A program made the position numbers and the translations under genes. Shown in pieces: positions 18,556 through 38,267 of a stretch of 39,652 bases of DNA. The DNA is from Parcubacteria group bacterium GW2011_GWA1_47_8. GTDB taxonomy: Bacteria > Patescibacteriota > Minisyncoccia > Phycocordibacterales > UBA1550. A model generated the notes under the pieces. That model searched no databases and was not told where the DNA came from. It saw only the letters and a list, made by a program, of their open reading frames with translations. Numbering within the stretch: the stretch's first letter is position 1; every line of letters starts with the position of its first letter. The stretch covers positions 1-39,652 of the forward strand of contig LCOP01000001.1 in NCBI GenBank assembly GCA_000996605.1, in the 5' to 3' direction.

Positions 18556-19905
18556 TTATTTGAGAAGCGATATCTGTTTTTCTTTGAGCACCAACTTGCT
18601 TCGCAGATGACTTAGCAACTCTCGCTTCTCGTATATAGATCGCTTTCGTAGAATGTGCTTCGCGTAGTTTCTGATGTCGATATCCTTGATTTTCACTTTC
18701 TCCATTACTTCTCGTCCAAGCACTGATTCTTGGAACTCATTGTGTTGCTCAATCTCGGCTTTAATCTTGTCTTTCATTCCGATCTCGTCGAGCGATACTA
18801 TGTCAAGGATGTTGGCGAGTTGTTCGACCAGATCCTCCTCTCGAATGTATCCGCATGGGCAGTTCTTGTCCTTGAATTTCGTGCATCCGTAGTACACATA
18901 CCTGTTTGTCGTCCCATCTTTGAGCTTCTTAAATTTCTCATCAGCCGTCACTCCCGATCCGCAGAGTCCGCAGGTAATCATCTTTGTGAAGGCAAACTCC
19001 TTGTCTTGGGCTCTCACTCCATAGTCATTCGTAATCTTGTTCTGTACTTGAGCGTATAAATCTTTGGTTATGATCGGATCATGCTTACCGACGTACCATT
19101 GTCCACCACCTTTCGGGTATTCAAACTCGCCATAGTAAAAAGTGCTTTTTAGAATTATGTAGACATTGCTCAGCGTGAGAGGTTTTCCATGTTTTGTCTT
19201 GAATCGTATATCCTCAGCTAGCCATTTGAATAGTTTTCGACCAGACCATCCATCATACGCAACTTTTTCGAACATTTGTTTGATCACGCCAGCTCGTTGT
19301 TCATCAAGAACCACTTCGCACTTTCTGTTTCTATCTGAATGACTCAGATATCCAGTCGGAGGCACTGATGGCCAGAGTCCCATCTCACACCGCGCCCGAA
19401 GTCCTCGCTTCACATTGACCATCTTGTTGTCATTCTCAAGTTTTGCTTGCGACCCAAGAATCATCAGGAGGAATTTCTCGTTCGGGTTGTTTGTGAACTT
19501 CTGTCCGTAGGTGCGTATCTCGTGGAGCAGTTTCTGATCCATCAGGTCTACCACCGATCCAAGGTCTCCGGCGTTTCTCGACAGGCGATCGGGTGCCCAT
19601 GTCAGAATGCCATTGAATTTACCTTGCCTGATTTCGTTGATTAGTTCGTTGTATACTGGCCTCTGCCCAACCTCTTTGGAAGAGTGCGACTCTCGCTTGA
19701 TCTCGACTATTTCAAGCCCCTCGCGCTCGGCGAGACTAATCATCTCCCTTACCTGCGACTCTATTGATAATGCTTGCTTGTCCTCTTGCTCCGTTGATTT
19801 ACGGGCATACAGACAGTACTTAATCGTTGGTGGGGTTACCTCTGGTGCCATCCCCATCGCTGGCTTTTGTGTTGTTTTTTCCATACAACACAAGGAATGA
19901 CGCAT
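18556..19905 (-). CDS. Large serine recombinase (site-specific integrase)
   Basis: This 449-residue protein has the N-terminal resolvase domain (about 28-170) with the catalytic Ser in YARKSTEQ (S37) and the arginine motif APDRLSRN. A recombinase domain follows (about 190-300, GLRARCEMGLWPSVPPTGYL), then a zinc ribbon (CGLCG ... CPCG) and a C-terminal coiled region (about 375-449). Such enzymes integrate and excise phages and mobile elements without host factors. A second Met at residue 8 is an alternative start; GAGAGG lies right before ATG 19905. It is the last gene of the minus-strand operon, 46 bases after the large terminase gene. Confidence 0.93.
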   Translation of the reverse strand: MRHSLCCMEKTTQKPAMGMAPEVTPPTIKYCLYARKSTEQEDKQALSIESQVREMISLAEREGLEIVEIKRESHSSKEVGQRPVYNELINEIRQGKFNGILTWAPDRLSRNAGDLGSVVDLMDQKLLHEIRTYGQKFTNNPNEKFLLMILGSQAKLENDNKMVNVKRGLRARCEMGLWPSVPPTGYLSHSDRNRKCEVVLDEQRAGVIKQMFEKVAYDGWSGRKLFKWLAEDIRFKTKHGKPLTLSNVYIILKSTFYYGEFEYPKGGGQWYVGKHDPIITKDLYAQVQNKITNDYGVRAQDKEFAFTKMITCGLCGSGVTADEKFKKLKDGTTNRYVYYGCTKFKDKNCPCGYIREEDLVEQLANILDIVSLDEIGMKDKIKAEIEQHNEFQESVLGREVMEKVKIKDIDIRNYAKHILRKRSIYEKRELLSHLRSKLVLKEKQISLLK

Positions 19906-19951: not shown

Positions 19952-21490
19952 TTATGAGTCAGAATATGGTCTATTGCTCGCTGGAAACATACCCCTTTTC
20001 CTGAGAGGGGTCGGATTGTCTAACCATGCTGGTCTAGGAAAAGTACCAGCAGTTCCTCCTGACCTATTATTTTCAAGTGTCTTGACTACGAGATATGCAA
20101 AAGCGTCTGCAAGGTCATCATGCCTTTCTTTTCCAAACCCTAACAACTGCTGAATGAGTTCTTCGCATCCTGTGTGCGGGAAGAACACACGAGTGTCCTT
20201 CATCATGGGAGTTGCAAGACGCAAACGCGCCGCTTTATCGCTCCCTTTGGTCGGAGCGGCTTCGACATCATACTTGCTCTGTTCCAGAAGCTGGACGAGT
20301 GCTTTTTGATACGCCACATCCTCTATATAGAACTTCACACGCGAACACTTCTGCAGGTGGAGTGCATCCAAAGATTTGATGCGATCGACTTGAGCTGGAA
20401 ATGTGAGACGTTCATTTATGGGATGAGGCTGGATGTAAATTTTGAGGTTCTTTCCGTACCCATAGATATATCCAATGACCATGGCGGTATAGTCAGCGGA
20501 CTGTTTCTCACTAATCGCAAGATCAACCCCGATAGCTATCGTCTGGGGTTTACCACTCGGCAGGTCATCATAGCGATGTATCCATTCAGGGTGAACAACT
20601 CGCTCTGCGGTGGAAATGATCTTGAGTTCATATTCCCGATACCACGCGATATCATCCATAGTCTTTTCTTTTTCTTCCCTGATACTTTCTGGTGTCGGAT
20701 ATTTCCCCGGCCACAGAGGGTTTCCGTGTTCATCAATGATCGGATACTCACGATACGTTCCGTGCATTCGCTCCATGTCGCCATTTTCGATTTTCATCTG
20801 AAGGCGCTTCAATACCGAATCTTCGTGCAATAGGTTTCCTACTGCGATAATGCGAGTTCGCTTGTCTCCAGCTGGGATAATTTCACTTGTAAGCCAGTTA
20901 AAAACCTTGTCCCTGCCTTCTCGAGTTTTAACCGAGTTCGTATCTTCAATGTCGTCGAGAATAATGAGATCGGGACGATGCTCATCATGACGCATACCGC
21001 GAATGCTCTGCTCAGTTGAGCTGATCATGATCTTCACGTTCAGTCTTTTGATAATGAGAGCGGTCGCATTACCCAGGCTATTCTTTTCTTCTTCAAACGG
21101 CCCGAGGTCTTTCCGCAAAAGCTCGTTATTGAGGAGTTGATTTTTGATGTTTGAGAGATACTGTCGAGACTTCTGCTCGGTCTGTCCGCAGATCACTATA
21201 AACTTCCGCTGTTGCACGCCTAAAATCGACCACAGAACATACGCGGTAGTGATGATGGTCGATTTGGCAGATCCTCGGAACGCGACGATAACCGCGAGCT
21301 TGATCGCATCGTCTTCAAGAATGCGGAATATCTCCTCATGGAAAGGAGCTGTCTCGTATTCCATGTATCGATGGAAATAGATGGGAAAGAAATGCTCAAA
21401 ACTCTTTTGAACGACGTTCTTTCGCAGTACTTTATCAATGAGAATCTTCTCGAATAGATCCTCGACTCTATTTTTCTTTTTTCTTGCCAT
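19952..21490 (-). CDS. Phage terminase large subunit
   Basis: This 512-residue packaging motor has an ATPase domain with Walker A-like FRGSAKST, Walker B LIILDDIED and coupling region AVGNLLHEDS. The RNase H-like nuclease domain supplies acidic residues in GVDLAISEK, FYIEDVAYQ and HDDLADAFAYL. The tail (about 475-512) is Pro/Arg-rich. TerL proteins cut concatemeric phage DNA and pump it into procapsids, so its presence marks phage ancestry. Its start overlaps the end of the small-terminase-like gene by 23 bases. No portal or capsid gene follows, as it would in a complete phage. Confidence 0.93.
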   Translation of the reverse strand: MARKKKNRVEDLFEKILIDKVLRKNVVQKSFEHFFPIYFHRYMEYETAPFHEEIFRILEDDAIKLAVIVAFRGSAKSTIITTAYVLWSILGVQQRKFIVICGQTEQKSRQYLSNIKNQLLNNELLRKDLGPFEEEKNSLGNATALIIKRLNVKIMISSTEQSIRGMRHDEHRPDLIILDDIEDTNSVKTREGRDKVFNWLTSEIIPAGDKRTRIIAVGNLLHEDSVLKRLQMKIENGDMERMHGTYREYPIIDEHGNPLWPGKYPTPESIREEKEKTMDDIAWYREYELKIISTAERVVHPEWIHRYDDLPSGKPQTIAIGVDLAISEKQSADYTAMVIGYIYGYGKNLKIYIQPHPINERLTFPAQVDRIKSLDALHLQKCSRVKFYIEDVAYQKALVQLLEQSKYDVEAAPTKGSDKAARLRLATPMMKDTRVFFPHTGCEELIQQLLGFGKERHDDLADAFAYLVVKTLENNRSGGTAGTFPRPAWLDNPTPLRKRGMFPASNRPYSDS

Positions 21491-21893
21491 GGTTTCGAAG
21501 GGATGAAAGCTTCAATGCTTCCCGTATCAGTTTCTTTTGCTCCTTAGTGAGTGGTTCGTCTTTGCTTGATACTGAACCAGACAGCTCAAGCTTGTTGCTG
21601 TACCGAGAATTGTGAGTTGAGAGATACAATCGGATTGCCTCAATCTTTTTGTCTCCGATAAGAGAGAAGAGTTGGTTCTCGGCAATGTCAGACATAAACG
21701 TTCTGCCCTCAACAAGAGCTTCGTCGACCTTTTTTTCGAACTTTCCGCTTGCTTTGATCCATCGGTATACAGTTGCTCTGGCAATGCCAACTTTTTGGCA
21801 GGATGTCTCGATAGTTGGGGTACGCTTCAACTGTTCAAGGAATGCCTTTTTGAGTTTGTTCTGACGAGCTTTGATGGTGTCGCGCCTGCTCAT
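21468..21893 (-). CDS. Small-terminase-like HTH protein
   Basis: This 141-residue basic protein has an N-terminal helix-turn-helix (about 25-50, SCQKVGIARATVYRWIKAS), a middle helical part (FEKKVDEALVEGRTFMSDIA) and a Lys-rich tail. Size, HTH and position directly before terL fit a phage terminase small subunit, which recognises packaging sites; a plain DNA-binding regulator is the alternative. The start ATG overlaps the stop of the upstream methyltransferase by 4 bases (ATGA type). Confidence 0.7.
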   Translation of the reverse strand: MSRRDTIKARQNKLKKAFLEQLKRTPTIETSCQKVGIARATVYRWIKASGKFEKKVDEALVEGRTFMSDIAENQLFSLIGDKKIEAIRLYLSTHNSRYSNKLELSGSVSSKDEPLTKEQKKLIREALKLSSLRNHGKKKEK

Positions 21894-22648
21894 ATCTTTT
21901 TGGCTTTAAGCCCGGTTAACTTCTGGAATCGATCAATAATGGTCTGGCAATATTCTGGATCAAGTTCGACGCCGATGCAGACGCGCTTTGTCTGTTCACA
22001 CGCGAGCAATGCCGTACCTGATCCGAGGAAGCCGTCATACACCACATCTCCGATGCGTGTGCTGTTGAGAATTAGTCGACGAATGAGATCCAGCGGTTTG
22101 GTCGTCGGATGCATCTTGCTCTTGTTCGGTTTTGGGCAAACCAAGACACTCTTATCTTTTGACTTTAGAAACTCATGAACGCCGTACCAGCCGTACGCAA
22201 TAAGCTCGTGCTGGGGAGCATAATCCATGCGACCAATCACTGCGTGAGTTTTGACCCATATCAGAAGCTGTCCAAATTTGAGACCGGTCTCAAGCATTCC
22301 TTCACGAAGCGCAAAGACCATCTTGTCCGAGTTGAAGATATAGAAGCTATTTTTGCGCTCAAGGTGTGGAAGTACCGCCTCGATCCAGTCGCGGGTGAAC
22401 TTTCGGTACTCCTCATCGCTTTGGAGGTGGTCTCCCGCGATTACTTTGTTCTTCGCTAGCGTTTGGAAGCCCTCTTTGCTTTCGGTTACCGCAACGCCAT
22501 AAGGAGGATCAATTACTACCGCCTTGATTTTGCGTTTTCCAACTAGCTTGGCAACCATGTCCTTGTTGCGAGAATCTGCGCAGAGAAGGAGATGATTGCC
22601 AAGGCGAAATGCTTCTCCATATTTAATTAAGTTTGGTGACTTGTTCAT
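21890..22648 (-). CDS. DNA methyltransferase (DPPY, beta-class order)
   Basis: This 252-residue protein has motif IV DPPY early (VVIDPPYGVAV) and the SAM-binding motif I late (DGFLGSGTALLACEQ), the beta-class order of N6-adenine/N4-cytosine methylases. HPTTKPLDLIRRLI, typical of this group, is also present. No partner endonuclease is in this operon, so it is probably an orphan phage-type methylase that hides element DNA from restriction. It begins 26 bases inside the end of the ParB-methyltransferase gene. Confidence 0.9.
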   Translation of the reverse strand: MNKSPNLIKYGEAFRLGNHLLLCADSRNKDMVAKLVGKRKIKAVVIDPPYGVAVTESKEGFQTLAKNKVIAGDHLQSDEEYRKFTRDWIEAVLPHLERKNSFYIFNSDKMVFALREGMLETGLKFGQLLIWVKTHAVIGRMDYAPQHELIAYGWYGVHEFLKSKDKSVLVCPKPNKSKMHPTTKPLDLIRRLILNSTRIGDVVYDGFLGSGTALLACEQTKRVCIGVELDPEYCQTIIDRFQKLTGLKAKKI

Positions 22649-23900
22649 GTGAGATTTTCTTAAAGCGATTAATAATGACCTGACAAAATACTGGCTCCAT
22701 TTCGCAAAGGTACGCGGTCCGTTTAAGTTGTTCGCACGCCGAGAGGATGCTTCCTGATCCAGCCGTCAGATCAAGTACGACATCGCCAGGACGAGTGCAA
22801 CGGCGCAATGCCTTCTCGTGGAGAGTCGGGCTTTTTTGAGTCGGATGTTGATATTCAGAACTCGGCAATCGCTTCACGAGCCAGATATTGAAGAGGTCGA
22901 GTATGTCGTCGGTAAGGCGGTTGCCTGTGGTAACTTCTTTATTCTGAATCTCATTCAAGTTCTTGATCTTGTCGTTAAGCCAAGGACGGCCAACAGTTCC
23001 GTACACGCAAAATTCGGTTACCTTGTTGAATGCAACTTTTGGTGTGGGTGATTGATTGTCCTTAATCCAAATGCAAAGACGCTTGGAATCAATACCAAGC
23101 TCTCGATATGCTTTTTGGAATAACCACACATAGCGTTCGTCGCACCAGAACATCACGTGAGTGTCTGGCTTCGCTACCGATAGCGCATTCTGCATTACTG
23201 ACTTCACGAATGTCTCGTATTCCGCATCAGACTTGCTGTCGTTAGTGGTACCACCGTACTTGCCTTTGTTGCCGACACCCTTGTTGTATGAGAGGCCAAT
23301 GTTGAACGGCAAGTCATCATTGATGAGGTCTACTTTTACATTGCCCATCAACTTTTGAACGCTCTCAGTTTTGGTCGCGTCTGAACAAAGTAAACGATGA
23401 CGTCCAAGAGCGAAGTAGTCTCCGTGCTTGATGCCAGTATCCTTTGCTTTTTCAACCTCCTCATCCTCGTCGAATTCGTCGTCACTGATCTCTAGGTTGT
23501 CGTCATAAATATTAGACAAGTCGAGAGAATCAAAACCTGCCGTGAGAAGCTCTCCGAGGTCGAACTCAGCGGCGAGCTTCTCGAAGTCCCACGATCCACC
23601 CGAACGATTCGAGGTAAGGAGATAGTCACGGAACTCTGCTTCCGTGAGTGGTCTATTCGGCACCCGTACTTCAATTTCTTCTTCACCTCTACCAAGAAGG
23701 GAGAGCGCAAGTACCCTCTGGTTGCCAGCCACCAAGGTGCCGTCCGTGTTGATGCACGGAAGCTCGGCGACATTGAATTTCTTGAGACTGCGCTTCAACC
23801 CCTCAAGCTGGGTTTCTGATAGTGTGCGAGGATTCTTTTCGTAGCGAATAAGATCTTTCACTTTTCGGCGTTCCGTACGCCACTCTAATTTCTTTGCCAT
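22623..23900 (-). CDS. ParB-domain DNA methyltransferase with variant motif IV
   Basis: This 425-residue protein starts with a ParB/Srx-like domain (about 10-100; KNPRTLSETQLEGLKRSL, LVAGNQRVLAL), then an acidic linker (about 135-155), then a beta-class methyltransferase domain. Motif I is LDLTAGSGSILSACEQ. At the place of motif IV the protein reads NDDLPFNIG, so the usual DPPY/F is DLPF. ParB-methylase fusions are common in phages. If Leu for Pro is real, activity may be altered or lost. It is the first gene of the minus-strand operon, preceded by a hairpin that would act as a terminator or attenuator. Confidence 0.85.
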   Translation of the reverse strand: MAKKLEWRTERRKVKDLIRYEKNPRTLSETQLEGLKRSLKKFNVAELPCINTDGTLVAGNQRVLALSLLGRGEEEIEVRVPNRPLTEAEFRDYLLTSNRSGGSWDFEKLAAEFDLGELLTAGFDSLDLSNIYDDNLEISDDEFDEDEEVEKAKDTGIKHGDYFALGRHRLLCSDATKTESVQKLMGNVKVDLINDDLPFNIGLSYNKGVGNKGKYGGTTNDSKSDAEYETFVKSVMQNALSVAKPDTHVMFWCDERYVWLFQKAYRELGIDSKRLCIWIKDNQSPTPKVAFNKVTEFCVYGTVGRPWLNDKIKNLNEIQNKEVTTGNRLTDDILDLFNIWLVKRLPSSEYQHPTQKSPTLHEKALRRCTRPGDVVLDLTAGSGSILSACEQLKRTAYLCEMEPVFCQVIINRFKKISHEQVTKLN

Positions 23901-25117: not shown

Positions 25118-25165
25118 CCTTTCTTTTTGTCTCAAAATGGTGTAAACTAATGGTAAGTTAGCTTT

Positions 25166-25366: not shown

Positions 25367-25370
25367 AAAT

Positions 25371-28316
25371 ATGAAGATTACCGATCAACACGCTAAATAT
25401 TTTGCATACGAGCTGACGAAGCGTTGTTCTTCCAATAGTTTGGAGAAACTTTCCTCTACACTTTCAAACGCTCAAGTTGATCTGAACCCTCATCAGATTG
25501 AGGCGGCACTTTTTGCTTTCAGGTCACCGCTCTCAAAAGGTGCGATTTTAGCCGACGAGGTTGGACTTGGTAAAACTATTGAGGCAGGACTCGTTCTCTC
25601 TCAAAAATGGGCTGAGAGAAAGAGAAACATTCTTCTAATCGTTCCTTCAAGTTTACGAAAACAATGGAACGACGAGCTATCGGAGAAATTCTTTCTACCT
25701 TCAATAATTCTTGAAGCAAGATCTTTTAATCAATACATAAAAGATGGAAATCTGAATCCATTCAATCAGGAGGATAAAATCATCATCTGCTCATACCACT
25801 TTGCTCGTTCCAAGTCTCCATATATCAAACAAACAAAATGGGATTTGGCAGTAATAGATGAGGCACACCGCCTCCGTAATGTATATAAAACAAGCAATAA
25901 GATTGCGCGTGAAATTAAAGATGCGCTGACCGAAGTCCCCAAGATTCTACTTACCGCAACCCCACTTCAAAACTCCCTACTCGAACTCTACGGACTGGTG
26001 AGTATCATTGATGATCACGTGTTTGGTGATCTAAAAAGCTTTAAAGCAAATTATGCACGGGTTTCCCGCGAGCAAGATATTTACGAAAATGAGCTCGGTC
26101 TTGTTGAGCCAAAACAAGAAATGTTTGTCGATTTACGCAACCGCTTAAAGCCAGTCTGTATTCGTACACTTCGTCGCCAGGTACTGGAATATATCAACTA
26201 TACGGAACGAAAACCTATCACGCAGGATTACGTTCCTACCGAACAGGAAGTTGAGCTTTATGACGGAATGTCTGAGTATCTTCAGCGAACAAAACTATAC
26301 GCACTTCCTTTTAGTCAGCGCCAACTCATGACTCTTATTTTGCGAAAGCTTTTGGCATCGTCTTCTTTCGCTATCGCCAGCACTTTGGATAAATTGGTAT
26401 ATAAACTCGAACAGCTAATCGTAGATACAAAAGCAAAAATACCTACTCAAGATGGTGGCATCGCCGGTATCGAACAAAACTTTGAAGCTTTTGAGGAAAT
26501 GTCCGACGAGTGGATTGATGACGAGGAGGGTGAAGATGATAAAGAAGAGAAAGAACAGAAGGCTCTTACAGAGAAAGATATTGTGCTCATGGAGCAGGAA
26601 AAAGCCGATCTAGAAAGATTCCGTAATCTAGCACAGAAAATATATACGAACTCCAAAGGGGACGCTTTGCTTACTGCCCTCAAAAAAGGTTTTGAAATGA
26701 CCGCCGAGCTAGGTGCTAAAAAGAAAGCAATCATTTTTACTGAGTCCACTATTACACAACGATACCTAGCAGAAACTCTTCTGGGTAATAATGGTTACAA
26801 AGACAAAATCGTTTTGTTTAATGGTTCAAATAACGACGATAAATCAAAAGAGATATACAAAAACTGGCTCGCAAAAAATAAGGACACTGACAAAATAACA
26901 GGATCAAAGACAGCCGACACCCGAGCGGCACTCATCGAATATTTCAAAGACGAAGCAGAAATCATGATTGCGACCGAAGCGGGAGCTGAGGGCGTGAATC
27001 TGCAATTCTGTTCATTGGTTATTAACTACGACTTACCGTGGAATCCTCAACGAATTGAACAGCGTATAGGTCGTTGCCATCGTTACGGACAGAAGCATGA
27101 TGTTGTCGTAATCAACTTCGTAAACAGAAAGAACGCCGCAGACCAACGTGTCTATGAACTGTTAGATCAGAAGTTTAAATTGTTTAAGGGTGTATTCGGT
27201 GCAAGTGACGAAGTGCTAGGTTCTATTGAATCAGGTGTTGATTTTGAAAAGCGTATTGCGGGAATCTATCAGACATGCCGTACAGCCGATGATATCAATA
27301 CCGCCTTCGATAAGCTTCAGGAAGAGATGGACGAAAGTATACAGAGTAACTTATCTGATACACGTCAAAAACTTCTGGAAAACTTTGATGCTGAAGTTCA
27401 CGAAAAGCTTAAACTCAACCAAAGAGAGAGTCAGTCATACCTTGATACCTATGAACGCTGGCTGTGGGACGTTACTCGTTACTACTTGGGGGATAATGCT
27501 GACTTTGCCGAGCATGAGTATTCTTTTTCTCTCAAAGTAAATCCTTTTCAAAATGAGGACATAGATCCAGGTCCATACAAGATCGGTAAAAATGTGGAAG
27601 ACGCGCACGTCTATCGCCCCGGGCACTCCTTGGCACAAAGAATATTGAATGAGGTTAAAAACAAACAGATTGAGTCTGCTGAGATTGTTTTTGATTATTC
27701 AAATCACTCGTCTATTATTTCCGTACTAGAACCACTTGTCGGTAAACATGGAACCTTAAAAGTTTCTAACTACACTGTTGAGGCTTTTGAAAAGGAAGAT
27801 GCGGTTGTCGTGTCTGCGCTCGATAATAATGGAGAGCCTATTGAAAGAGACATAATTAAGAAACTATTCTCGCTTTCTGCTCAATCAGTTACACCTAAAG
27901 CGCTGTCACCTGAAGAGTCCACGAAGCTAGATGAGCTTGAGCAACAAACTATCTCTATAATTTCTGGGCAGATCGCAGAAAGAAACAGTGAGTTTTTTGA
28001 TGACGAAGTAGATAAACTCGATAACTGGTCAGATGATGTAAAGAAAGGTCTCGAGCTTGATCTAAGGAAGCTTGATATTGATATCAAGACAGCCAAAACA
28101 AATGCCAAAAAAATTGTTAATCTTGAGGAGAAGCTCAAGGCTCAGCGGGAAATCAAGGATTCCGAGAAAAAACGTAATGAGATGCGTAGAAAGTTATATG
28201 AGGCACAGGACGAGGTAGAGATTAAAAAAGAAAAGTTACTGGAAGGAATAGAAGCTCAGCTAAAGCAGAAGTCACAGATAGAAACATTATTTACAATCAG
28301 CTGGAAAATCATTTAA
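25371..28316 (+). CDS. SNF2-family (RapA-like) helicase of a defence operon
   Basis: This 981-residue protein is a Swi2/Snf2 DNA translocase. Lobe 1 has Walker A DEVGLGKT (65-69 for GLGKT), DEAH at 163-166 and LTATPLQN. Lobe 2 has MIATEAGAEGVNLQ and the arginine-finger motif QRIGRCHRYGQ. An acidic insert (DEEGEDDKEEKEQ, about residue 380-395) lies between lobes, and the last about 130 residues are a predicted coiled coil. No nuclease motif is seen. SNF2 helicases occur in DISARM class 2 and other defence systems, but DrmA/DrmB are absent here. The Mod gene starts 5 bases after its stop. Confidence 0.88.
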   Translation: MKITDQHAKYFAYELTKRCSSNSLEKLSSTLSNAQVDLNPHQIEAALFAFRSPLSKGAILADEVGLGKTIEAGLVLSQKWAERKRNILLIVPSSLRKQWNDELSEKFFLPSIILEARSFNQYIKDGNLNPFNQEDKIIICSYHFARSKSPYIKQTKWDLAVIDEAHRLRNVYKTSNKIAREIKDALTEVPKILLTATPLQNSLLELYGLVSIIDDHVFGDLKSFKANYARVSREQDIYENELGLVEPKQEMFVDLRNRLKPVCIRTLRRQVLEYINYTERKPITQDYVPTEQEVELYDGMSEYLQRTKLYALPFSQRQLMTLILRKLLASSSFAIASTLDKLVYKLEQLIVDTKAKIPTQDGGIAGIEQNFEAFEEMSDEWIDDEEGEDDKEEKEQKALTEKDIVLMEQEKADLERFRNLAQKIYTNSKGDALLTALKKGFEMTAELGAKKKAIIFTESTITQRYLAETLLGNNGYKDKIVLFNGSNNDDKSKEIYKNWLAKNKDTDKITGSKTADTRAALIEYFKDEAEIMIATEAGAEGVNLQFCSLVINYDLPWNPQRIEQRIGRCHRYGQKHDVVVINFVNRKNAADQRVYELLDQKFKLFKGVFGASDEVLGSIESGVDFEKRIAGIYQTCRTADDINTAFDKLQEEMDESIQSNLSDTRQKLLENFDAEVHEKLKLNQRESQSYLDTYERWLWDVTRYYLGDNADFAEHEYSFSLKVNPFQNEDIDPGPYKIGKNVEDAHVYRPGHSLAQRILNEVKNKQIESAEIVFDYSNHSSIISVLEPLVGKHGTLKVSNYTVEAFEKEDAVVVSALDNNGEPIERDIIKKLFSLSAQSVTPKALSPEESTKLDELEQQTISIISGQIAERNSEFFDDEVDKLDNWSDDVKKGLELDLRKLDIDIKTAKTNAKKIVNLEEKLKAQREIKDSEKKRNEMRRKLYEAQDEVEIKKEKLLEGIEAQLKQKSQIETLFTISWKII

Positions 28317-28321
28317 CAATT

Positions 28322-29983
28322 ATGAGCAATAACAAACAAAAACTAGAGCTTACATGGATCGGGAAAAACAATCCCGAGTATGATATTGCCAATATTGAAC
28401 CGCGCATTTTAGAAGAGCGGACTGATTTATCGTATGGCGACAAAGATACCGAGAATATGATTATTCACGGTGATAACCTCCTGGCTCTTAAAGCTCTTCT
28501 ACCAGAATACGAAGGTAAGGTGAAATGTATTTATATTGATCCACCATACAATACTGGTAATGCTTTTGAGCATTACGACGACAGTGTTGAGCATTCCACA
28601 TGGCTCTCACTTATGAAGCCGAGGCTTGAATTGCTAAGGGCCCTTTTGGGTGACGATGGAAGTATTTGGATTTCAATAGATGAAAAGGAAGCCCATTACC
28701 TAAAAGTGTTGTGCGATGAAGTTTTTGGAAGAAATAATTTTATTATTCAAACAACAATTAAAAGGGGTTCGGCAACAGGTCATAAAGCAATTAACCCCAC
28801 CCCTGTTCAGGTTTGCGACCTAATGTTGTGTTATGCAAAAAGCAAAGAAAATTGGATTTATAAGCCAGTTTATCAAGAGCGAGATTATGACAAAGCATAC
28901 TCTCAGTATATTGAAAACTATGAAGAGGGTTTTGAAAACTGGAAATTTGTTTCACTTAAGGAAATTCTTAAAAAAGATAATCTTAAAATAGAGACGGCAT
29001 TAAAAAACTTTCCCGAGCGCATTATAAGATTTGCGCAACCAGATTATAAGGGAGTTGGGCAAGAAACAAGGGATTATATCGATCTTTCTAAAAAAGAACC
29101 GAGTAAGATACACAAACAATCCAGAGAGGGCTACCCAGATATTTATTTGATAAATGGAAACAGAATTTTGTTTTACAAAGACAAGATGAAAGAAATAAAT
29201 GGGTCATTTGTGACGGCAGAACTTGTAACTAATCTTTGGACTGATATGAACTATCAAGGAATTGCAAGCGAAGGAGACGTGGTATTCCTAAAAAGTAAAA
29301 AACCAGAGCTTCAAATAAAAAGGATTTTAGAAATGTCTACTCAATCAGGAGATACCGTTCTCGACTCATTCCTTGGTTCTGGAACAACTTCAGCCGCCGC
29401 CCACAAAATGAATAGAAAATATATAGGTATTGAAATGGGAGAACATGCTTACACACATGTACACAAAAGGATGAAAAATGTTGTAGACGGCATTGATCAA
29501 AGTGGAATAAGCAAAGCTATGAAATGGCAAGGTGGGGGTGGATTTAAGTTTTATGAACTTGCGCCAAGTTTCGTAGTGATTGATGAATTTGGTAATCCGG
29601 TGATTGATAGCTACTACAATGACACTAAGCTCATCCGCGCGATGTGTAAGCTAACCAACTACACGTTTGCCCCAAGCCCTGCTGTCTACTGGAAGCACGG
29701 TAAAGGCCAAGGCAACAATAGTATTTATGTAACAACCCAGATGCTTTCTGTGGCAATGGTTCAACAGATTGTGAGTCATCTTGGTGCAAACGAGACACTC
29801 CTCATCTGTCCAAAGAAATTTGAACCTGGATGTGAGAAGGTAGATAACCGTATCACTATCAAAAAGATACCGCAGTCAATTTTGAAGGCGTGCCAATTTG
29901 GAAAGAAAGAATACCTGCTTCCTATCAAAGAACGAGCGATGGAAGAAGTTGACGAAGACGAAGTTGATTCTGACGAAAACTAA
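28322..29983 (+). CDS. Type III-like Mod DNA methyltransferase
   Basis: This 553-residue protein has motif IV DPPY at 73-76 (IYIDPPYNTG) before motif I (DSFLGSGTTSAA, 348-359), the beta-class order. It also has the NMIIHGDNLLALKAL and WLSLMKPRLELLR segments typical of type III Mod and related adenine methylases. The middle (about 150-330) is the variable target-recognition part. The C-terminal about 150 residues are an extra domain with an acidic tail (MEEVDEDEVDSDEN). It should methylate adenine at a short asymmetric site and protect self DNA. It is followed after 1 base by the Res gene. Confidence 0.92.
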   Translation: MSNNKQKLELTWIGKNNPEYDIANIEPRILEERTDLSYGDKDTENMIIHGDNLLALKALLPEYEGKVKCIYIDPPYNTGNAFEHYDDSVEHSTWLSLMKPRLELLRALLGDDGSIWISIDEKEAHYLKVLCDEVFGRNNFIIQTTIKRGSATGHKAINPTPVQVCDLMLCYAKSKENWIYKPVYQERDYDKAYSQYIENYEEGFENWKFVSLKEILKKDNLKIETALKNFPERIIRFAQPDYKGVGQETRDYIDLSKKEPSKIHKQSREGYPDIYLINGNRILFYKDKMKEINGSFVTAELVTNLWTDMNYQGIASEGDVVFLKSKKPELQIKRILEMSTQSGDTVLDSFLGSGTTSAAAHKMNRKYIGIEMGEHAYTHVHKRMKNVVDGIDQSGISKAMKWQGGGGFKFYELAPSFVVIDEFGNPVIDSYYNDTKLIRAMCKLTNYTFAPSPAVYWKHGKGQGNNSIYVTTQMLSVAMVQQIVSHLGANETLLICPKKFEPGCEKVDNRITIKKIPQSILKACQFGKKEYLLPIKERAMEEVDEDEVDSDEN

Positions 29984-29984
29984 T

Positions 29985-32795
29985 ATGTCTACTTTTATGA
30001 ACCGAGAACAAGCCCTGCAATACATAACAAACGCAATGAGTTTGCGAGATCCTCAAGAAAAAAGCTTGGTGTTTTTTGCTGACTACCTAGAAGGAGATGC
30101 TGGCAAAAAGGTATTGGCGAGAATGAAGAAAGAAAATCGTGGAAGCGTCGAGGATATTGAGGCTTCGACCAAAGAGTACTCTCAAGCAATACCCGACCTG
30201 AGACAGTTTCAATCTTTCGAACGAACCTTCCCTGCATATACCTTTGCACTGGCTACTGGTGTGGGCAAAACTCGTCTTATGGGTGCCTTTGTAGCGTATC
30301 TCTACCTTGTTTACGGTATACAGCATTTTATGATCGTTGCCCCGGGCAATACCATCTATCGCAAGTTGGTAGATGATTTCAGCAAAGCCAACAATCCCAA
30401 GTATGTTTTTCGAGGAATTGAAGAGCTTACGACTTCGAATGTAAAAGTTATCACCAAGGACAACTATGCCCAAAGCCAGATGGCGCAACTTTTTGCAAAC
30501 AAGATAGAAATTAACATTTTCAATATTCAGCAATTTGCGCAAAAGGATATAGAGAAAGAAAAAGGTATTACCAAGTTTAGTGAAATGCTCGGGGAATCAT
30601 ATTTTGAATATCTTAGTTCTCTCGATGATCTTGTTGTATTGATGGATGAATCGCACCACTACCATGCCGATGCGGCAATGGGTTCGCTTGACCGTATAAA
30701 CCCTTTGTTTGGACTTGAATTTACTGCTACGCCCTATCTTGCTCCGACGAGTACAAAGAAAGGCACGGGGCTTATTCTCAAGAAAAATATCTTCTACGCA
30801 TATAATCTTGGAAATGCTATTCGGGACGGGTATGTAAAAGATCCGTGGGTAGGCACAGAAGCCGATGTTGATTTTGGCCAGTGGGATGCGGAGTCCATAG
30901 AAACCGATGCTCGTAAACTACAGCTCGCCGCCTTTTTTCATGAACGCACGAAAGTTGCTTTGAAAGAATACGCTATTGAAAACAATAGACATGAAGTAAA
31001 GCCCGTCATGCTTGTTGTGGCAAAGGATACTGCCCACGCGAGTGCATTGCGTATGTTGATTGATAGCGAACAGTTTAGAGGTGGTGCGTATAAGGGCAAG
31101 GTAATCGAAGTTCATACAAAAACAAAAGGCGACGAAGCGGATGAGACAATTGAAAAGCTTATATCACTTGAACACCCAGATAACATCGTGGAAATTGTCA
31201 TCCATGTAAATATGCTCAAGGAGGGGTGGGATGTTGCTAATATTTATACGATTGCACCAATAAGGTCTTCGGTGGCACAAATTTTAACTGAGCAAACAAT
31301 TGGTCGCGGACTTCGCCTGCCCTACGGAGAAAAGACGGGAAATAAAAATGTTGATCGTGTAATGATTGTTGCCCATGACAATTACGCAAAAGTGATTGAG
31401 GAGGCACAACACTCCAAGCTTATTCAGCCGTCAAACATTGAAAGCATTTCGACTGATGACACAAAGGTGGTAAGAGAAGTTATTGAAGTGCAATCTGTTT
31501 TTGTCACTAATATTCAAGAGCAAATCAAAGCGAGCGGAAGTCTCATGCAGGAAATTGAAGCGCAGGCAACAAAAGCAGTTAATGCTGTCATGTCGGAGGA
31601 CACTCCAGAAGATGTGAAGATAGCGACAATACAAAACAAAGTGCGGGAGATAGTCGAGATAACAGCGAAAAATGAAGCGGTAAAAATGGGTTCTGTCGAG
31701 GTTGGAAGTACCGCATACGAAGAAGGGTCTTTGTTTAATATTTTGAGTGAACCTGCAAAGAAAGAGCTTGAAGATATTGGGCGTGTTTCGAGACAAACCA
31801 TCGAGGTTCGTAACATTCCTATTCCTAGGTTAATGCTTACGCCTCATTACGGTGAACTCACGATTGATAATTTTGACTTAGATATAACAAAATTAAGTAA
31901 ATTTGCTACGGACGCCTCGATTCTTGAACAGGCGTTACAAGGAAAGGAAGAGAAGGACTTATTCGGCGTAGCTTATCAAGGTCATCGCGAGACTGAGCTC
32001 ACTCGTGTTTCAAGTCTCGGTGAAGGCCGTGCGCAAAGCCCAGAAAATACTATCATCTCAGCTCTCCTTGATTTTCCACTTGTTGATTACGATGAGCAGA
32101 GAGAATTATTGCTCAAACTTTCAAATCAGGCGGTTGCATACTACAAGTCATTTGTTAGCGATACAAGCGCACTCAAAATGATGGTGGAAAATAATTTTCG
32201 CCAGATTGCCAAAGAGATATACGATCAGATATTAACCCACAAAGAGTTTAAGTCTGAGAGTTATTTGGAGTCTAGTATTCGTGAGCCAAAACCGTACTTG
32301 GAGCAATACAATATTTCACGAAGCTTCGATGAGAAGCCTGTTACTTTGGAATCTCAACTTGATCGTTTCTCAAGAGATAAAATCTATACAGGATTTAGCA
32401 AAGCGTGTCACTCAATGTACAGATTCGATTCTTCGGATGAAGTACGGATGGCGTACCTTCTTGATAAAGAACCGTCGGTAGAAGATTGGCTTCGCCCCGC
32501 TCCAAATCAATTTGAAGGACTCTACTGGCGTGATGCGGAGGGAAACTCACAACACCGTTATGAGCCAGATTTCGTAGTGGAGTTCAAGAATGAAATTGTG
32601 ATGATTGAAGTTAAGCCAGGTGTAGAAGCAAAAAACCTAGACGTACAAGAGAAAAAGAAAACCGCTGATAAGTATTGCGAGCTTGTTTCAAAGAATGTTG
32701 GCAAATACGGGATCACCAAGCCGTGGCGGTATGTCATTACCCCTACGGAAAAAATCACTGTTAGTTCTACAGTGGAAGGGTTATTAAAGCTATGA
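29985..32795 (+). CDS. Type III-like Res helicase-nuclease
   Basis: Start at ATG 29985 (the frame is open further upstream but overlaps Mod); 936 residues. The SF2 helicase core has Walker A ATGVGKT (TGVGKT 91-96), DESH (221-224), EFTATP and the motif V/VI region NMLKEGWDVANIY and QTIGRGLRLP. The C-terminal nuclease is of the PD-(D/E)XK type: PDF (D862) and MIEVKPG (E875, K877). This is the normal Res layout, so with Mod it could form a complete type III restriction enzyme. The SNF2 partner is additional to the textbook type III system. Confidence 0.92.
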   Translation: MSTFMNREQALQYITNAMSLRDPQEKSLVFFADYLEGDAGKKVLARMKKENRGSVEDIEASTKEYSQAIPDLRQFQSFERTFPAYTFALATGVGKTRLMGAFVAYLYLVYGIQHFMIVAPGNTIYRKLVDDFSKANNPKYVFRGIEELTTSNVKVITKDNYAQSQMAQLFANKIEINIFNIQQFAQKDIEKEKGITKFSEMLGESYFEYLSSLDDLVVLMDESHHYHADAAMGSLDRINPLFGLEFTATPYLAPTSTKKGTGLILKKNIFYAYNLGNAIRDGYVKDPWVGTEADVDFGQWDAESIETDARKLQLAAFFHERTKVALKEYAIENNRHEVKPVMLVVAKDTAHASALRMLIDSEQFRGGAYKGKVIEVHTKTKGDEADETIEKLISLEHPDNIVEIVIHVNMLKEGWDVANIYTIAPIRSSVAQILTEQTIGRGLRLPYGEKTGNKNVDRVMIVAHDNYAKVIEEAQHSKLIQPSNIESISTDDTKVVREVIEVQSVFVTNIQEQIKASGSLMQEIEAQATKAVNAVMSEDTPEDVKIATIQNKVREIVEITAKNEAVKMGSVEVGSTAYEEGSLFNILSEPAKKELEDIGRVSRQTIEVRNIPIPRLMLTPHYGELTIDNFDLDITKLSKFATDASILEQALQGKEEKDLFGVAYQGHRETELTRVSSLGEGRAQSPENTIISALLDFPLVDYDEQRELLLKLSNQAVAYYKSFVSDTSALKMMVENNFRQIAKEIYDQILTHKEFKSESYLESSIREPKPYLEQYNISRSFDEKPVTLESQLDRFSRDKIYTGFSKACHSMYRFDSSDEVRMAYLLDKEPSVEDWLRPAPNQFEGLYWRDAEGNSQHRYEPDFVVEFKNEIVMIEVKPGVEAKNLDVQEKKKTADKYCELVSKNVGKYGITKPWRYVITPTEKITVSSTVEGLLKL

Positions 32796-32826
32796 TCAAA
32801 AATATACTCACAACATTGGGCACCTA

Positions 32827-35358
32827 ATGGTTATGAATTACTTAAAATTAAAAATTAAGAACTATTTATATCGCTCCAAATCTTTTTGGACTACAAAGAA
32901 ATGGTTTGAGGATAAACCGATATTTTCATTGTGGAAAGGAGTGTATCGTAGTCGCTATGAGTTCAATAGGTTTAGGGATTATAAAGATATTCTTACACCC
33001 ACTCTCGTCTCTTTTGGAACAGCGGTTTTGTATTCTGTATTTATAATTTTTATTCTAGAGCTTGGTAACCATTATTACCCGACGGGTTTAAAATACGATA
33101 AAGAAGCAGTTGACACCTTTCTGTCTGTTATAGCGAGTATTTCCGGTGTATTTCTGGGTTTGTATTTTACTGCCATATCTGGCATTGCTAGTAGCTACCT
33201 TTTGCGCGCACCTCAAAATGTTAAACAATTTTTTCTTACAGAACCCAGAGGACAACAGTATGTTAGAACTATAGAAATCACAGGAATCGTTAGTGTTTTT
33301 TATATTGTTTTTAAGTCATTCGGATATCAGATTCATCCAATAGGTTTGGCATTTCTATCCCTACTTGTAGCATACATAATTATTAGGTTTTGGCAGGTTG
33401 GAACAAATGTTTTTTATTCACTGGAGCCACAATTTGCGTTGACCTGGATTACCAGAGACATATTTTTTTCTACAAAAAGTATTGCCCCACCAGGTTTACA
33501 GTGGAATAAGTCAGCAATACAAAATCACCACAGGGTAATGGTCTCAGGAAAGTTTGCTTTGATAAAAAACTTGATTCATTTCGGCAAGTCAGAGATGAGG
33601 GTATCTGATGAGCAGTTGGTGGCAGCTATGGGATATATCGGTGGCCTATTGGTTTCTTATGCAGATTTCAAAAAAAAGATTCCCACTAGTAGCTACTGGT
33701 TTGAAACAAAAAATGAATTTCAAGACTGGACGCTCGCGGGATCATCGCAAATTGCTATTGCGTTGAGTACAGGAACCCCCCTTCAACCTAAAAATGTTCG
33801 GAATTACACGTGGTATGAACAAGAAGCTTTAAATATTGCTGTTCAAATTTTTGAATCCTTCTCAGATGCTAGAAAAATACTCTCAAGTGCTCGAGGTCTT
33901 GATATATTAGTTGAAGTTGTGGAGGTTTATGCACAAGATTTTGATGTAAAAGGAGCAGAACTATTGTTTAAGAAAATTAAGGTTGTTAGCGACCATCTCT
34001 ACACAATACAGGCAAATAATACTCAACAGCAGTTGTTTAAGGAGCAACTATCGTTTGTAGATGCCCAAGGAAGACTTGCGATATCAGCAATGTTGGGATT
34101 GATGAAGTATCTCGACAGTCACTCTTGTGAAGACATAGCAAAACGTATCGCTGGGATTGACTGGTTAGCTGATAAGAACATCTATCTCACAGGTCTACCT
34201 GGCGCAATGCTACCCCGACTCGAGTCCTTGTCTAATGATTTACGAAATGAGAAGGAGATTGAAGGAAACTTGATTTCTGCAGATTGGTATATAAAAACGT
34301 ATTGCTTTCAGCAGTATCTTTTCTCCTTGCAGGGTTACTTCAACTTTATAAAATCACTCCACTCCGACCATTTTCAATCAAGCCTCGATAGATTGTTATC
34401 CGCGCAGCAATTACCGCTTGCGGTGCATCTGATTCAAAGGTGGAAAGAATTTTCGGCAAAATATCGAAGAATGATATTTGACCTGAAAAAACACATAGAT
34501 TGTTCTAATTCACATCGTTTATTAGGAGACCTTCCTTGGATTGAGTTTGATTTTGAAAAGGAGAAGCAGGTTGCTTTGGATCGAGAGAAAGATGTAACGG
34601 ATAAAATGATTCAGCTCTTACCACAATTGAAAACTCTCGCTACTGGTGACGATCTGCCTGACTACTTTGGCCAAGCTCTCACAGAGGGCGTACAGGCTTG
34701 TTATGAAGCTTGTGAGGATAACGACCATGAGAGATTGGGAAAGATCCTTCCTGCAGTTTTTGATGCATCTTTAGTAGCTTACGACAGATTGCGTGAAAAG
34801 GTGAAAGATTGGAGCCAAATTGATAGTAAATTGATATTTTCAAGTGAACCGTTGGAAAATCTCTTTGAAATCAGCGGATACGCAAAACTCTATTCTGAGC
34901 TATATCAAAACCCCGAACTTTGGAGCGTGGTCGAGCGTTTATGGAATATATATTTTCAAGCTGTTGATGCCAAACAAGTGATTCAATTTATCGCTACAAT
35001 GAGTAGCTATCGAGATGGTGTCTTCCAGATAATGCCACAAGCTATGTTAAGAAGTAACTGGCAGATTGGTTTTGAACATAAATTGAGAGAACGTGGCATA
35101 CCGGTGTTTCCAGATAGTGGGAGTTATGATTCCGTAAATGGACGCAGACAGCCAACTCACACAAGTCCTGTAATACGAGTTCTTGAGCGGTCAGGTGGTT
35201 TAAGATTGATGGCTTCGGCAAGAGACATTTTCTTTGCTACGTATTTATCAAGTCTCCCTGCTGCGGAAGGAATAGAGCTTCCCGACAGACACAACTTCAA
35301 GGAATCAATTCAAGAGGAATCGCAAAATCCTAACCAAGAAATAGATGAAGATGAATAA
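32827..35358 (+). CDS. Membrane-anchored defence-island protein, unknown family (843 aa)
   Basis: Three to four membrane helices lie near the N-terminus: about 59-80 (LVSFGTAVLYSVFIIFILEL), 95-117 (FLSVIASISGVFLGLYFTAI), about 155-171 and 175-195. The segment ISGVFLGLYFTAISGIASSY recalls the membrane part of DUF2254 proteins. The remaining about 640 residues are soluble and mainly helical, with no motif I recognise. It lies 31 bases after the Res gene on the same strand and overlaps the next gene by 14 bases, so both are made together. Within a defence operon a membrane anchor suggests a sensor or an effector acting at the membrane; this is inference. Confidence 0.65.
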   Translation: MVMNYLKLKIKNYLYRSKSFWTTKKWFEDKPIFSLWKGVYRSRYEFNRFRDYKDILTPTLVSFGTAVLYSVFIIFILELGNHYYPTGLKYDKEAVDTFLSVIASISGVFLGLYFTAISGIASSYLLRAPQNVKQFFLTEPRGQQYVRTIEITGIVSVFYIVFKSFGYQIHPIGLAFLSLLVAYIIIRFWQVGTNVFYSLEPQFALTWITRDIFFSTKSIAPPGLQWNKSAIQNHHRVMVSGKFALIKNLIHFGKSEMRVSDEQLVAAMGYIGGLLVSYADFKKKIPTSSYWFETKNEFQDWTLAGSSQIAIALSTGTPLQPKNVRNYTWYEQEALNIAVQIFESFSDARKILSSARGLDILVEVVEVYAQDFDVKGAELLFKKIKVVSDHLYTIQANNTQQQLFKEQLSFVDAQGRLAISAMLGLMKYLDSHSCEDIAKRIAGIDWLADKNIYLTGLPGAMLPRLESLSNDLRNEKEIEGNLISADWYIKTYCFQQYLFSLQGYFNFIKSLHSDHFQSSLDRLLSAQQLPLAVHLIQRWKEFSAKYRRMIFDLKKHIDCSNSHRLLGDLPWIEFDFEKEKQVALDREKDVTDKMIQLLPQLKTLATGDDLPDYFGQALTEGVQACYEACEDNDHERLGKILPAVFDASLVAYDRLREKVKDWSQIDSKLIFSSEPLENLFEISGYAKLYSELYQNPELWSVVERLWNIYFQAVDAKQVIQFIATMSSYRDGVFQIMPQAMLRSNWQIGFEHKLRERGIPVFPDSGSYDSVNGRRQPTHTSPVIRVLERSGGLRLMASARDIFFATYLSSLPAAEGIELPDRHNFKESIQEESQNPNQEIDEDE

Positions 35359-36391
35359 CTTTATTAAAAAATCCAAAGAATTTATAAAGTCTTTCTTAAA
35401 AGACCCACTCTTTTTGAATAGATGGGAAGAGTCATGGTACTCTCGTCGCCGTGATGATAATCAGTTGTCAGTAAGAATTTCTGGACGTCATAGAAGAAAA
35501 GCCTATCCATATTACGGAGATTCCCATCTGTTTGTTGAAGATATGTACACGGGAATTATGCCCTTTATGATTTACAAGGGGGAAAGAGAAAAATATCCAG
35601 CAAGAATTGAACCAGCTACTACAACTCAAAAACAGAGGATAATTGCTAGCGGTATTTCCCAGCGAGATCACACATTCTTTTTAGAAGACGCAATATGTGA
35701 ATTTGTTAGAACAACTGCCCACATTCTTTTTTCTGATGGCGTAGCGTTTTACGAGATTGTCTACAAGAAAAATGAGGTGGGCGAAATTGAGAGTTTTGAA
35801 TTTGAGTTATTACAACCTTTTTACCTGTTCCGTTTTTGGAAAAACTATTACCAAGTTGTACCGTGGTGGGAAGCAAAAGAATCTCGCATACGTGCCCAGA
35901 TAGTAAAAATACCCGCTGAAAAGATTCTGCGCATTGATTTTCCAAAGCGATACGGAGGAAAACGAAAGATCTACTCTTTGCTAAAGCGTTTGTATCAATT
36001 AAGTAAAGAATTGATACCTGAATTTCAAATGCAGGCTATGGGTAAGAATGAGAATATCGGCTTTAATCTAGATGAGTTTAGTAAGGCAAAATATTTGGAG
36101 ATTGCAAAACTTACCACCCAGTATGGGTGGAACCAGCGTCAGCGTTCAGATAAATATATTACTGAGTATTATTCAATGATCCGTTTTCTACGTGAAAAAA
36201 AACTAGAAGCAACTATTAGAACCCATATTATTGCATCTCTAAACGAAGTTCTTAATCGTCCTCCTTTAAATCTCAACGCTACGATAATTATTGAGAACTT
36301 GTTTTCTGTTGAAAAGGTTGGGGAGCAAGAAAGGCTCTTAGAAAAAGGAAATGTTAAGTTTATGGATCTTTTTAATTCACTCAAAATTTAA
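35345..36391 (+). CDS. Partner of the membrane protein, portal-like features (348 aa)
   Basis: This 348-residue protein starts inside the end of the membrane-protein gene (ATG 35345 or 35351). It has a basic N-terminus (NNFIKKSKEFIKSFLKD), then an alpha/beta part with LEDAICEFVRTTAHILFSDG, VAFYEIVYKKNEVGEIESFE and VKIPAEKILRIDFPKR. That order (helix, GxAxYEI strand, P-region, IPAEKILRI) resembles phage portal proteins, but the length is short and no other head gene is near. It may be an adapted portal-like fold or unrelated. Obligate overlap with the 843-aa gene marks the two as a functional pair. Confidence 0.55.
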   Translation: MKMNNFIKKSKEFIKSFLKDPLFLNRWEESWYSRRRDDNQLSVRISGRHRRKAYPYYGDSHLFVEDMYTGIMPFMIYKGEREKYPARIEPATTTQKQRIIASGISQRDHTFFLEDAICEFVRTTAHILFSDGVAFYEIVYKKNEVGEIESFEFELLQPFYLFRFWKNYYQVVPWWEAKESRIRAQIVKIPAEKILRIDFPKRYGGKRKIYSLLKRLYQLSKELIPEFQMQAMGKNENIGFNLDEFSKAKYLEIAKLTTQYGWNQRQRSDKYITEYYSMIRFLREKKLEATIRTHIIASLNEVLNRPPLNLNATIIIENLFSVEKVGEQERLLEKGNVKFMDLFNSLKI

Positions 36392-36414
36392 TCGTTACTA
36401 ATATCAAACCATAT

Positions 36415-37119
36415 ATGCGTAACGAAAAAATCAACTCAAAGATTGTCACTCTCTGGAATAAGTATTTTCAGAATGACCAAGATGTATACGCTCCGCTTTT
36501 CTACGATGAATTTAAGAAGGGCGGTTTGCTGTTTGTCGGCATGAATCCGTCTTTCAGTGCAAGAGGATTTAAGACGATTCTTCAGAATACAGAATATAAA
36601 GACATGGATCCCGATACATTCTTCAAATGGAGCAACATATCTTCCAATCCTAAGTTGATAGATGACTGCATCAAAGTAGAAAACTACGCATACCAAAACT
36701 ACTCGCTGTACTTCGGTCGTCCTGTTGAAATAGCCAAGAATGTTGGCCTCGATTGGCAACACATTGATCTCTTTCTCTACAAAGAAACGTCGCAGACTGA
36801 TTTCATGAATCGTGTCCGAAGCAAGGGTGTTTTGAACGAGTTTGGTATGGATCAGATAAAATTGTTTGAGGACATTTTAGTTCAAATTGAACCTCGCTGT
36901 GTCGTGGTCAGCAATGCGACTGGCTCGGAAATACTACGCGAATATATAAAGAGTGATCTTTCGTGGGATGCAGAGCGGGGCTTTCACTGGTTCACAAGAG
37001 GAGGCAAGAAAATTCCAATGTTCTTCTCCTCAATGCTGAGCGGACAACGTGCCCTTGATCGCTGGTCATACGAGCGACTTGTGTGGCACATAGGGCAAGC
37101 GGTGAATATCTCAAAATAG
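36415..37119 (+). CDS. Uracil-DNA-glycosylase-fold protein
   Basis: This 234-residue protein has the UDG-superfamily order: motif A LLFVGMNPSFSARG (GMNPS 42-46), a middle strand CVVVSNATGSEILREY and a late loop MFFSSMLSGQRALDRW, in the place of the HPS-type minor-groove loop. The Asn in GMNP matches the TDG/MUG-like catalytic arrangement rather than the GQDPY of family 1. Such enzymes excise uracil or modified bases; UDG-fold proteins are also known in anti-phage defence against modified phage DNA. Its place between the defence genes and a HEPN-like protein suggests base-directed defence. The next gene follows after 2 bases. Confidence 0.65.
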   Translation: MRNEKINSKIVTLWNKYFQNDQDVYAPLFYDEFKKGGLLFVGMNPSFSARGFKTILQNTEYKDMDPDTFFKWSNISSNPKLIDDCIKVENYAYQNYSLYFGRPVEIAKNVGLDWQHIDLFLYKETSQTDFMNRVRSKGVLNEFGMDQIKLFEDILVQIEPRCVVVSNATGSEILREYIKSDLSWDAERGFHWFTRGGKKIPMFFSSMLSGQRALDRWSYERLVWHIGQAVNISK

Positions 37120-37121
37120 AT

Positions 37122-38267
37122 ATGGAAGATACCCTAGATACAGCAAAAAATGAGAAGCTCGCGGCGATATTTTCTAAATTAGAAAAACCCACTACTTCAG
37201 ATTGGATGTTGGGTCATGAGTATTCATTTACCAAAGTAAGTATTTCGACTTCAGTACCGGAGGCATATTTACTGAAGCACGTTTTCGCTGATAGTTTGGG
37301 TTTCCCCTGTGACTACATGCCGATGGAAAAAGTTTTGTGGGAAATCTGCTTCATAATAAATGGAATTCTATGTAAGGTTGTAAGTCATAAATTCGGGCAT
37401 CGCTTATACATAGGTTCTGCTGATGAGGATACCGTTTCAAAGACCACAGACTATCTTGTTGGAATATTTAATTCTGCGACAGCCTTCCTCTCTACGCTTC
37501 TTAAGGATTACGCAGACATAGAAATAAAGAAAGGCAATGTCAGTATTGATAACCAGTATTCTAGCTTACGAGCTACATATGACTATTTCAGGGATGAAGC
37601 AAAGAAAAAACGAGCTGAGAAAGTGGAGATTACTCCGAAGGAATCGGCCAATCAATTACTACCAGGATGGAACGCTGAGATGGAAAAATTGAGACATGCC
37701 TCCTATCTTGACCAAGGAGCATACTTTGCCTTTTTCGGATTACTCGAACACGTACTAGTTCTCTTTTTGGCATTTAATGATTTTGATCCAAAAACAGAGC
37801 ATCTAAAAGAATTCATTTTTCGTCCCTGGGCTGACAAGTATAAACGGGCATTTAATTTAAGATCTGACAAAGAGGCAGATCGTCACTACCAGTTACTTAT
37901 TGCTATTTCAAGAAAATATAGGAATCCTCAGGCACACGGGATGTTTAATAAAGAAGGCAGAAGCATGGCTTTCTTTTTAGAGGGTACAGGTTTATTGTCG
38001 GCACATTTTTCAAATGAGGAGAGTAATATTCCTCAATGGGTTCGTGGTGATGGAAAGGAGCTTGAGGAGTTGGGTGATTTTCTTTTATGGCTTGAAGGTC
38101 ATACTACATACAAAGTTCCAATGCAGATTATTAAGGGAGGTCTCAGGATACATTTTTCAGAAGAAGGTCGGCAAATATACAAAGATTTAATGAACGACGG
38201 CGATGCATCAGAATTTGTGGAGCATGAAAATCTGATAGCTGATGATCATGGGAATATGGATTGGTGA
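37122..38267 (+). CDS. Protein with C-terminal HEPN-like RX4H motif
   Basis: Start at ATG 37122, 2 bases after the UDG-like gene (the frame is open 39 bases further upstream inside that gene); 381 residues. The C-terminal half is helical with LEHVLVLFLAFNDF and SRKYRNPQAHGMF, in which R267-N-P-Q-A-H272 fits the RX4-6H motif of HEPN ribonucleases. The N-terminal part (about 1-180) is mixed alpha/beta without recognised motifs. HEPN domains in defence operons often cut RNA when triggered; that role here is inferred. It is the last gene of the plus-strand operon. Confidence 0.55.
   Translation: MEDTLDTAKNEKLAAIFSKLEKPTTSDWMLGHEYSFTKVSISTSVPEAYLLKHVFADSLGFPCDYMPMEKVLWEICFIINGILCKVVSHKFGHRLYIGSADEDTVSKTTDYLVGIFNSATAFLSTLLKDYADIEIKKGNVSIDNQYSSLRATYDYFRDEAKKKRAEKVEITPKESANQLLPGWNAEMEKLRHASYLDQGAYFAFFGLLEHVLVLFLAFNDFDPKTEHLKEFIFRPWADKYKRAFNLRSDKEADRHYQLLIAISRKYRNPQAHGMFNKEGRSMAFFLEGTGLLSAHFSNEESNIPQWVRGDGKELEELGDFLLWLEGHTTYKVPMQIIKGGLRIHFSEEGRQIYKDLMNDGDASEFVEHENLIADDHGNMDW

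Follow-up and report, generated by a model that had tools for sequence, protein, structure and literature searches.

The last two genes of a cargo region in this 39,652-nucleotide stretch of DNA (hereafter the window) lie almost end to end, the first encoding a DNA glycosylase-like protein and the second a HEPN-like protein, which raises the question of whether they work together. The sequence-only reading held that they do, and that a glycosylase linked to an RNase effector would be a new combination in defence. We instead favour the explanation that these are two independent anti-phage cargo genes that are adjacent by chance, within the defence island of an integrative phage-like Paceibacteria element.

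Reading of the sequence locates the two genes and their candidate motifs as follows:

36415..37119, + strand: gene 1 (P0001), 234 aa, ATG at 36415 to TAG at 37119; UDG-superfamily DNA glycosylase-like protein
36538..36552, + strand: gene 1, motif A-like G42-M-N44-P45-S46, conserved in relatives
36766..36768, + strand: gene 1, D118, candidate base-recognition residue; an acid in 12/12 aligned rows and at a strand end in the model
37027..37044, + strand: gene 1, late loop S205-S-M-L-S-G210, a candidate for insertion into DNA; the model is of low confidence at 209-214
37122..38267, + strand: gene 2 (P0002), 381 aa, ATG at 37122 and stop at 38267; HEPN-like protein, unnamed family
37920..37937, + strand: gene 2, R267-N-P-Q-A-H272, HEPN-type Rx4H, followed by G273; R, N, H, and G invariant in aligned relatives

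Both open reading frames, their strand and the 2-base spacing are thus as first described, and so are GMNPS (residues 42-46) and SSMLSG (205-210) in gene 1 and the numbering of R267-NPQA-H272 in gene 2; the Asn of GMNPS is also present, but it is residue 44 rather than 45 as previously numbered. The junction reads TAG-AT-ATG, and because this short gap falls within a single same-strand gene run, the two genes are probably co-transcribed here. The motifs differ in how often they arise by chance. Specifically, GxNP[S/G] appears in 0.07% of gene 1 shuffles, and the stricter RN-x3-H in 2.4% of gene 2 shuffles, while RX4H appears in 43% of the latter and 18 times in the ~11,000 aa of window proteins. 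RX4H alone is therefore at chance level, and the case for the motifs of both genes rests on their conservation in relatives.

Coupling was assessed by searching every reading frame at the other gene 1 loci with a gene 2 profile, and by the reverse search. Gene 2 is found at none of the 10 other gene 1 loci (L015/L031, L016/L038, L017/L033, L018, L019, L004, L032, L034, L035, and L036/L037), a count drawn from finite sampled collections in which some loci are cut by contig ends, near which a partner could be hidden. Gene 1 is likewise found at none of the 12 other gene 2 loci (by record, L005-L014, L021, and L039), of which nearer 8 are independent, given that L010, L012, L014, and L039 are near-identical copies of a P2-like prophage and L007/L008 are close. 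The same holds genome-wide, with gene 2 absent from all 7 other genomes carrying gene 1, and gene 1 absent from the sole other genome of the order that carries gene 2. The co-occurrence analysis proposed by the sequence-only reading thus returns no pair outside this locus, either side by side or elsewhere within one genome. This is the outcome that the sequence-only reading itself named as refuting, and it leaves the glycosylase-RNase combination unsupported. Among the open-access papers searched, we also found none that joins a DNA glycosylase and a HEPN protein in phage defence. As relatives of the two genes never occur together elsewhere, the genes are most likely independent cargo.

The element that carries them includes the following genes:

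18556..19905, - strand: large serine integrase of the host element (PHROG integrase, 2.2e-66; Resolvase, Recombinase)
19952..23900, - strand: terminase large and small subunits, DNA methylase, and ParB-methylase, a phage-like core that recurs beside other gene 1 homologues
25371-28316, + strand: SNF2 helicase, DrmD-like (profile-library matches)
28322-29983, + strand: type III Mod (profile-library match), resembling a gene beside the gene 2 relative in L005
29985 (probable start) to 32795, + strand: type III Res (profile-library match), also resembling a gene beside the gene 2 relative in L005
32827..36391, + strand: two genes, of 843 aa and 348 aa, just upstream of gene 1; no library match

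The cargo spans 24332-38267, behind the integrase, terminase subunits, methylase, and ParB-methylase, and includes a same-strand run of the DrmD-like SNF2 helicase, Mod, Res, and the two library-unmatched genes, with gene 1 and gene 2 last. The G+C content of this cargo run is 0.38-0.43, compared with about 0.45-0.52 before the element, and no capsid genes were recognised in the element (18556-23900 plus cargo). It may carry defence genes in the manner of a phage satellite. Its core also recurs with differing defence cargo in L017/L033, L018, L036/L037, and L038. The unassigned protein encoded at the start of the plus-strand cargo (24332-25117) is 68% identical to that of L016:1608-2354, and in L037 the start of a homologue adjoins the integrase. 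Further along, a DrmD-like SNF2 helicase placed directly 5' of a type III Mod-Res pair (25371-32795) is an unusual three-gene restriction arrangement; the 843 aa protein has hydrophobic N-terminal stretches, and its gene overlaps that of the 348 aa protein by 14 bases.

The UDG fold of gene 1 that had been read from its sequence, an alpha/beta/alpha fold, is supported by structure prediction and by fold matches. An AlphaFold2 model built from six aligned sequences reaches a pLDDT of 78.7 and a pTM of 0.78, and its first 45 PDB matches in Foldseek are all enzymes of the UDG superfamily, including TDG, MUG, family 4, UdgX, and SMUG1, with probabilities mostly of 0.9-1.0 and a best E of only 2.5e-3. 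The viral models of BFVD give two matches with E under 1e-3, including a protein annotated as a phage UDG (2.5e-4). Searches with the sequence, by comparison, produced no match above cut-off in Pfam (including UDG), NCBIfam, PADLOC, PHROGs, or the PDB, and the gene 1 profile does not match 28 Paceibacteria UDGs significantly (hhalign, E 0.068); in the best local match, the gene 1 strand IEPRCVVVSNA aligns with the strand INPKLIVFLGRHA of the Paceibacteria UDGs. As such, the UDG assignment is based on the fold match.

N44, P45, and S46 are invariant in the 11/11 family members that cover the site, and residue 118, at the end of the strand WQHIDLF (modelled strand 114-119), is D in every row except that of one genome (G491), which has E. 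The motif B loop, FSSMLSG, is kept in the Paceibacteria clade, while Bacteroidota relatives read FSVHLQYK and lack SSMLSG, so the latter was dropped as a universal motif of the family.

Relatives of gene 1 were drawn from genome contigs, from 297 genomes of the order, and from plasmids. We find five loci in genome contigs, 28-91% identical to gene 1, one relative on a Runella plasmid, and copies in 8/297 genomes of the order, the window's own genome included. Viral contigs yielded no gene 1 relative, and phage records yielded no relative of either gene. Gene 1 is not the housekeeping enzyme, since a different contig of the genome encodes a PF03167 UDG of its own; a PF03167 UDG is present in 81/89 genomes of the order. 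Gene 1 sits among defence genes, as Brig-type glycosylases do, and the neighbours of its relatives vary between loci. For example, relatives lie near Hachiman HamA/HamB in L017, near a type II RM, a helicase, and an Mrr-like type IV gene in L015, near an Mrr-like gene in L034, and near an AAA ATPase of the PDC-S06 type in L016. Terminase, methyltransferase, and ParB-methyltransferase genes of the same element are found near relatives in L017/L033, L018, L034, L036/L037, and L038. With the same terminase and methylase genes flanking relatives amid varied defence neighbours, gene 1 is recurrent cargo of a Paceibacteria element.

Published descriptions of Brig1 and Brig3 allow a comparison with gene 1. 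All are linked by UDG-superfamily membership and by location in defence islands. Brig1 requires Y121 and E147, the latter replacing N82 of S. tokodaii UDG (PMC11078745), while Brig3 depends on N50, E55, W100, and D127, and its N225 is inserted into the DNA (PMC13160076). The N50-P51 motif of Brig3 is matched by N44-P45 in gene 1, and D118, judging by the published positions and its invariance, is a candidate counterpart of the essential pocket acids E147 and D127; the late DNA-inserting loop of the Brig type also has a candidate equivalent. The hosts differ, with gene 1 in Paceibacteria and Bacteroidota and Brig1 homologues mostly in Actinobacteria (PMC11078745), and no partner resembling BapA of Brig3 was recognised for gene 1. 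Gene 1 also shares its predicted fold with TDG/MUG, family 4, UdgX, and SMUG1 enzymes, and its GxNP motif with MUG/TDG and SMUG1. It differs from these repair enzymes in lacking a significant sequence match, in its acid at 118, and in being rare and mobile.

For gene 2, motif conservation and architecture make a HEPN-type RNase likely, but the fold itself is putative. HEPN proteins are defined by Rx4-6H with a polar residue after the R (PMC3710099), a definition that R267-N268 and H272 fit. All 11 aligned family members, most of them only 19-28% identical to gene 2, keep R267, N268, H272, and G273, which are also present in L020; the segment before the motif has a helical pattern shared across relatives. 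The structure model is poor (pLDDT 48) and a fold search with it uninformative. Profile matches are weak as well: the segment aligns in register with an ApeA-like HEPN protein (hhalign, E 0.0024, compared with 0.22-0.67 for gene 1 controls), two family members reach E ~0.04 against the Csx1 HEPN profile, and DUF4145 is not matched significantly (E 0.14). No match above cut-off was obtained in Pfam, PADLOC, NCBIfam, PHROGs, or a PDB sequence search. Gene 2 resembles ApeA-like and Csx1-like HEPN proteins in its Rx4H with Asn after Arg and in its helical context (PMC3710099), as well as in links to R-M systems, phages, and plasmids; it differs from them in an N-terminal alpha/beta part and a C-terminal extension ending in NMDW. 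From these sequence features, it probably represents a HEPN family that is unnamed in the four profile libraries searched.

Plasmids of Erythrobacteraceae, Variovorax, Sinorhizobium, Rhizobium, and Nocardia carry relatives of gene 2, and others come from five viral contigs, one other Paceibacteria genome, and 11/5426 E. coli genomes, with WP_032248694.1 of NZ_CP010237 as an E. coli example. In the P2-like prophages of E. coli, the relative has gpA (replication endonuclease) on one side and the portal gene on the other, which places it exactly in the gpA-gpQ interval, a known defence hotspot (PMC9122126); the window copy belongs to a Paceibacteria element instead. A TIR-domain gene follows ~300 bases after the relative in these prophages (L010:9450-10262 and L039:7471-8271). 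On the Erythrobacteraceae plasmid (L005), the relative comes after a type III Mod-Res pair and an antitoxin-like gene of the Xre/MbcA type. Its overlap with this Xre/MbcA/ParS antitoxin-like gene (L005:7522-9062) suggests a toxin-antitoxin-type pairing of the family in Erythrobacteraceae. Most relatives have no adjoining R-M gene. Gene 2 is thus a defence candidate of wide distribution, found mostly on its own, that came to lie next to gene 1 here.

Several other explanations of the locus were weighed. In a true two-gene system, gene 1 would sense or excise a modified base, and DNA in the abasic or modified state would then trigger the gene 2 RNase, leading to abortive infection. The shared strand and tight spacing fit such a system, both protein types are plausible parts of a defence, and the Brig3-BapA operon demonstrates that glycosylases can have operon partners (PMC13160076). 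Set against this are the missing partner at every other locus and in the other genomes searched, and the locus-by-locus change in gene 1 neighbours, and we regard such a system as very improbable. A sensor-effector operon in this lineage alone, with base excision on modified phage DNA activating or licensing the gene 2 HEPN RNase, seems to us equally improbable. For gene 1, the main alternative is ordinary repair, i.e. a uracil- or mismatch-type base-excision repair enzyme acquired by the element with no defence role. The nearest folds are indeed those of repair glycosylases (TDG, MUG, family 4 UDG, and SMUG1), and phages carry UDGs too; however, the host already has its PF03167 UDG, gene 1 is rare and found among restriction and Hachiman genes, and position 118, if it is equivalent, has an acid where Asn is usual. 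We consider the repair role unlikely and give a moderate preference to gene 1 as stand-alone, Brig-like base-excision immunity.

The remaining alternatives concern gene 2. PrrC is a toxin released on inactivation of its partner type Ic R-M system, and gene 2 could similarly be a regulated toxin of the upstream SNF2-Mod-Res genes, with gene 1 an unrelated insertion between them. The L005 Mod, behind which a relative lies, is 36% identical to the window Mod, and HEPN genes are commonly associated with R-M systems (PMC3710099). Yet solitary relatives predominate, three genes separate Res from gene 2 in the window, and in L005 nothing matches the DrmD-like helicase and the Res is only distantly related to that of the window, which makes a regulated toxin of this kind rather improbable. 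A reading in which gene 2 is not HEPN at all, and RN-x3-HG is conserved within a different helical fold, is also unlikely. The poor model and the lack of significant Pfam, PADLOC, and PDB matches would agree with another fold, but the polar N that follows R, the invariant R and H, the helix-rich segment, and the in-register ApeA-like match all point to HEPN. We find it quite likely, from the sequence of the family, that gene 2 is a HEPN RNase acting alone or as a back-up of the neighbouring R-M system.

For the enzymatic activities, targets, and regulation of these two probably independent genes, we infer the following. Gene 1 would act on incoming phage DNA by flipping a modified base into a pocket around N44-P45 and D118, pushing the late loop into the duplex, and cutting the glycosidic bond, which would leave abasic sites that block replication. 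If acid 118 serves in base recognition, as its proposed counterparts do in Brig1 and Brig3, it hints at a target of the modified cytosine type. Gene 2 would be a metal-independent HEPN RNase with R267, N268, and H272 as its active site, and may act alone or as a second line freed upon inactivation of the adjacent SNF2-Mod-Res restriction system.

The absence of a link between gene 1 and gene 2 removes a wrong system-level hypothesis. If gene 2 is an RNase, a library-unnamed HEPN family in the E. coli P2 defence hotspot becomes easily testable in a laboratory strain. If gene 1 works as proposed, the acid at 118 directly predicts its substrate class, and base-excision immunity against modified phage DNA would extend to the ultra-small Paceibacteria and their mobile elements.
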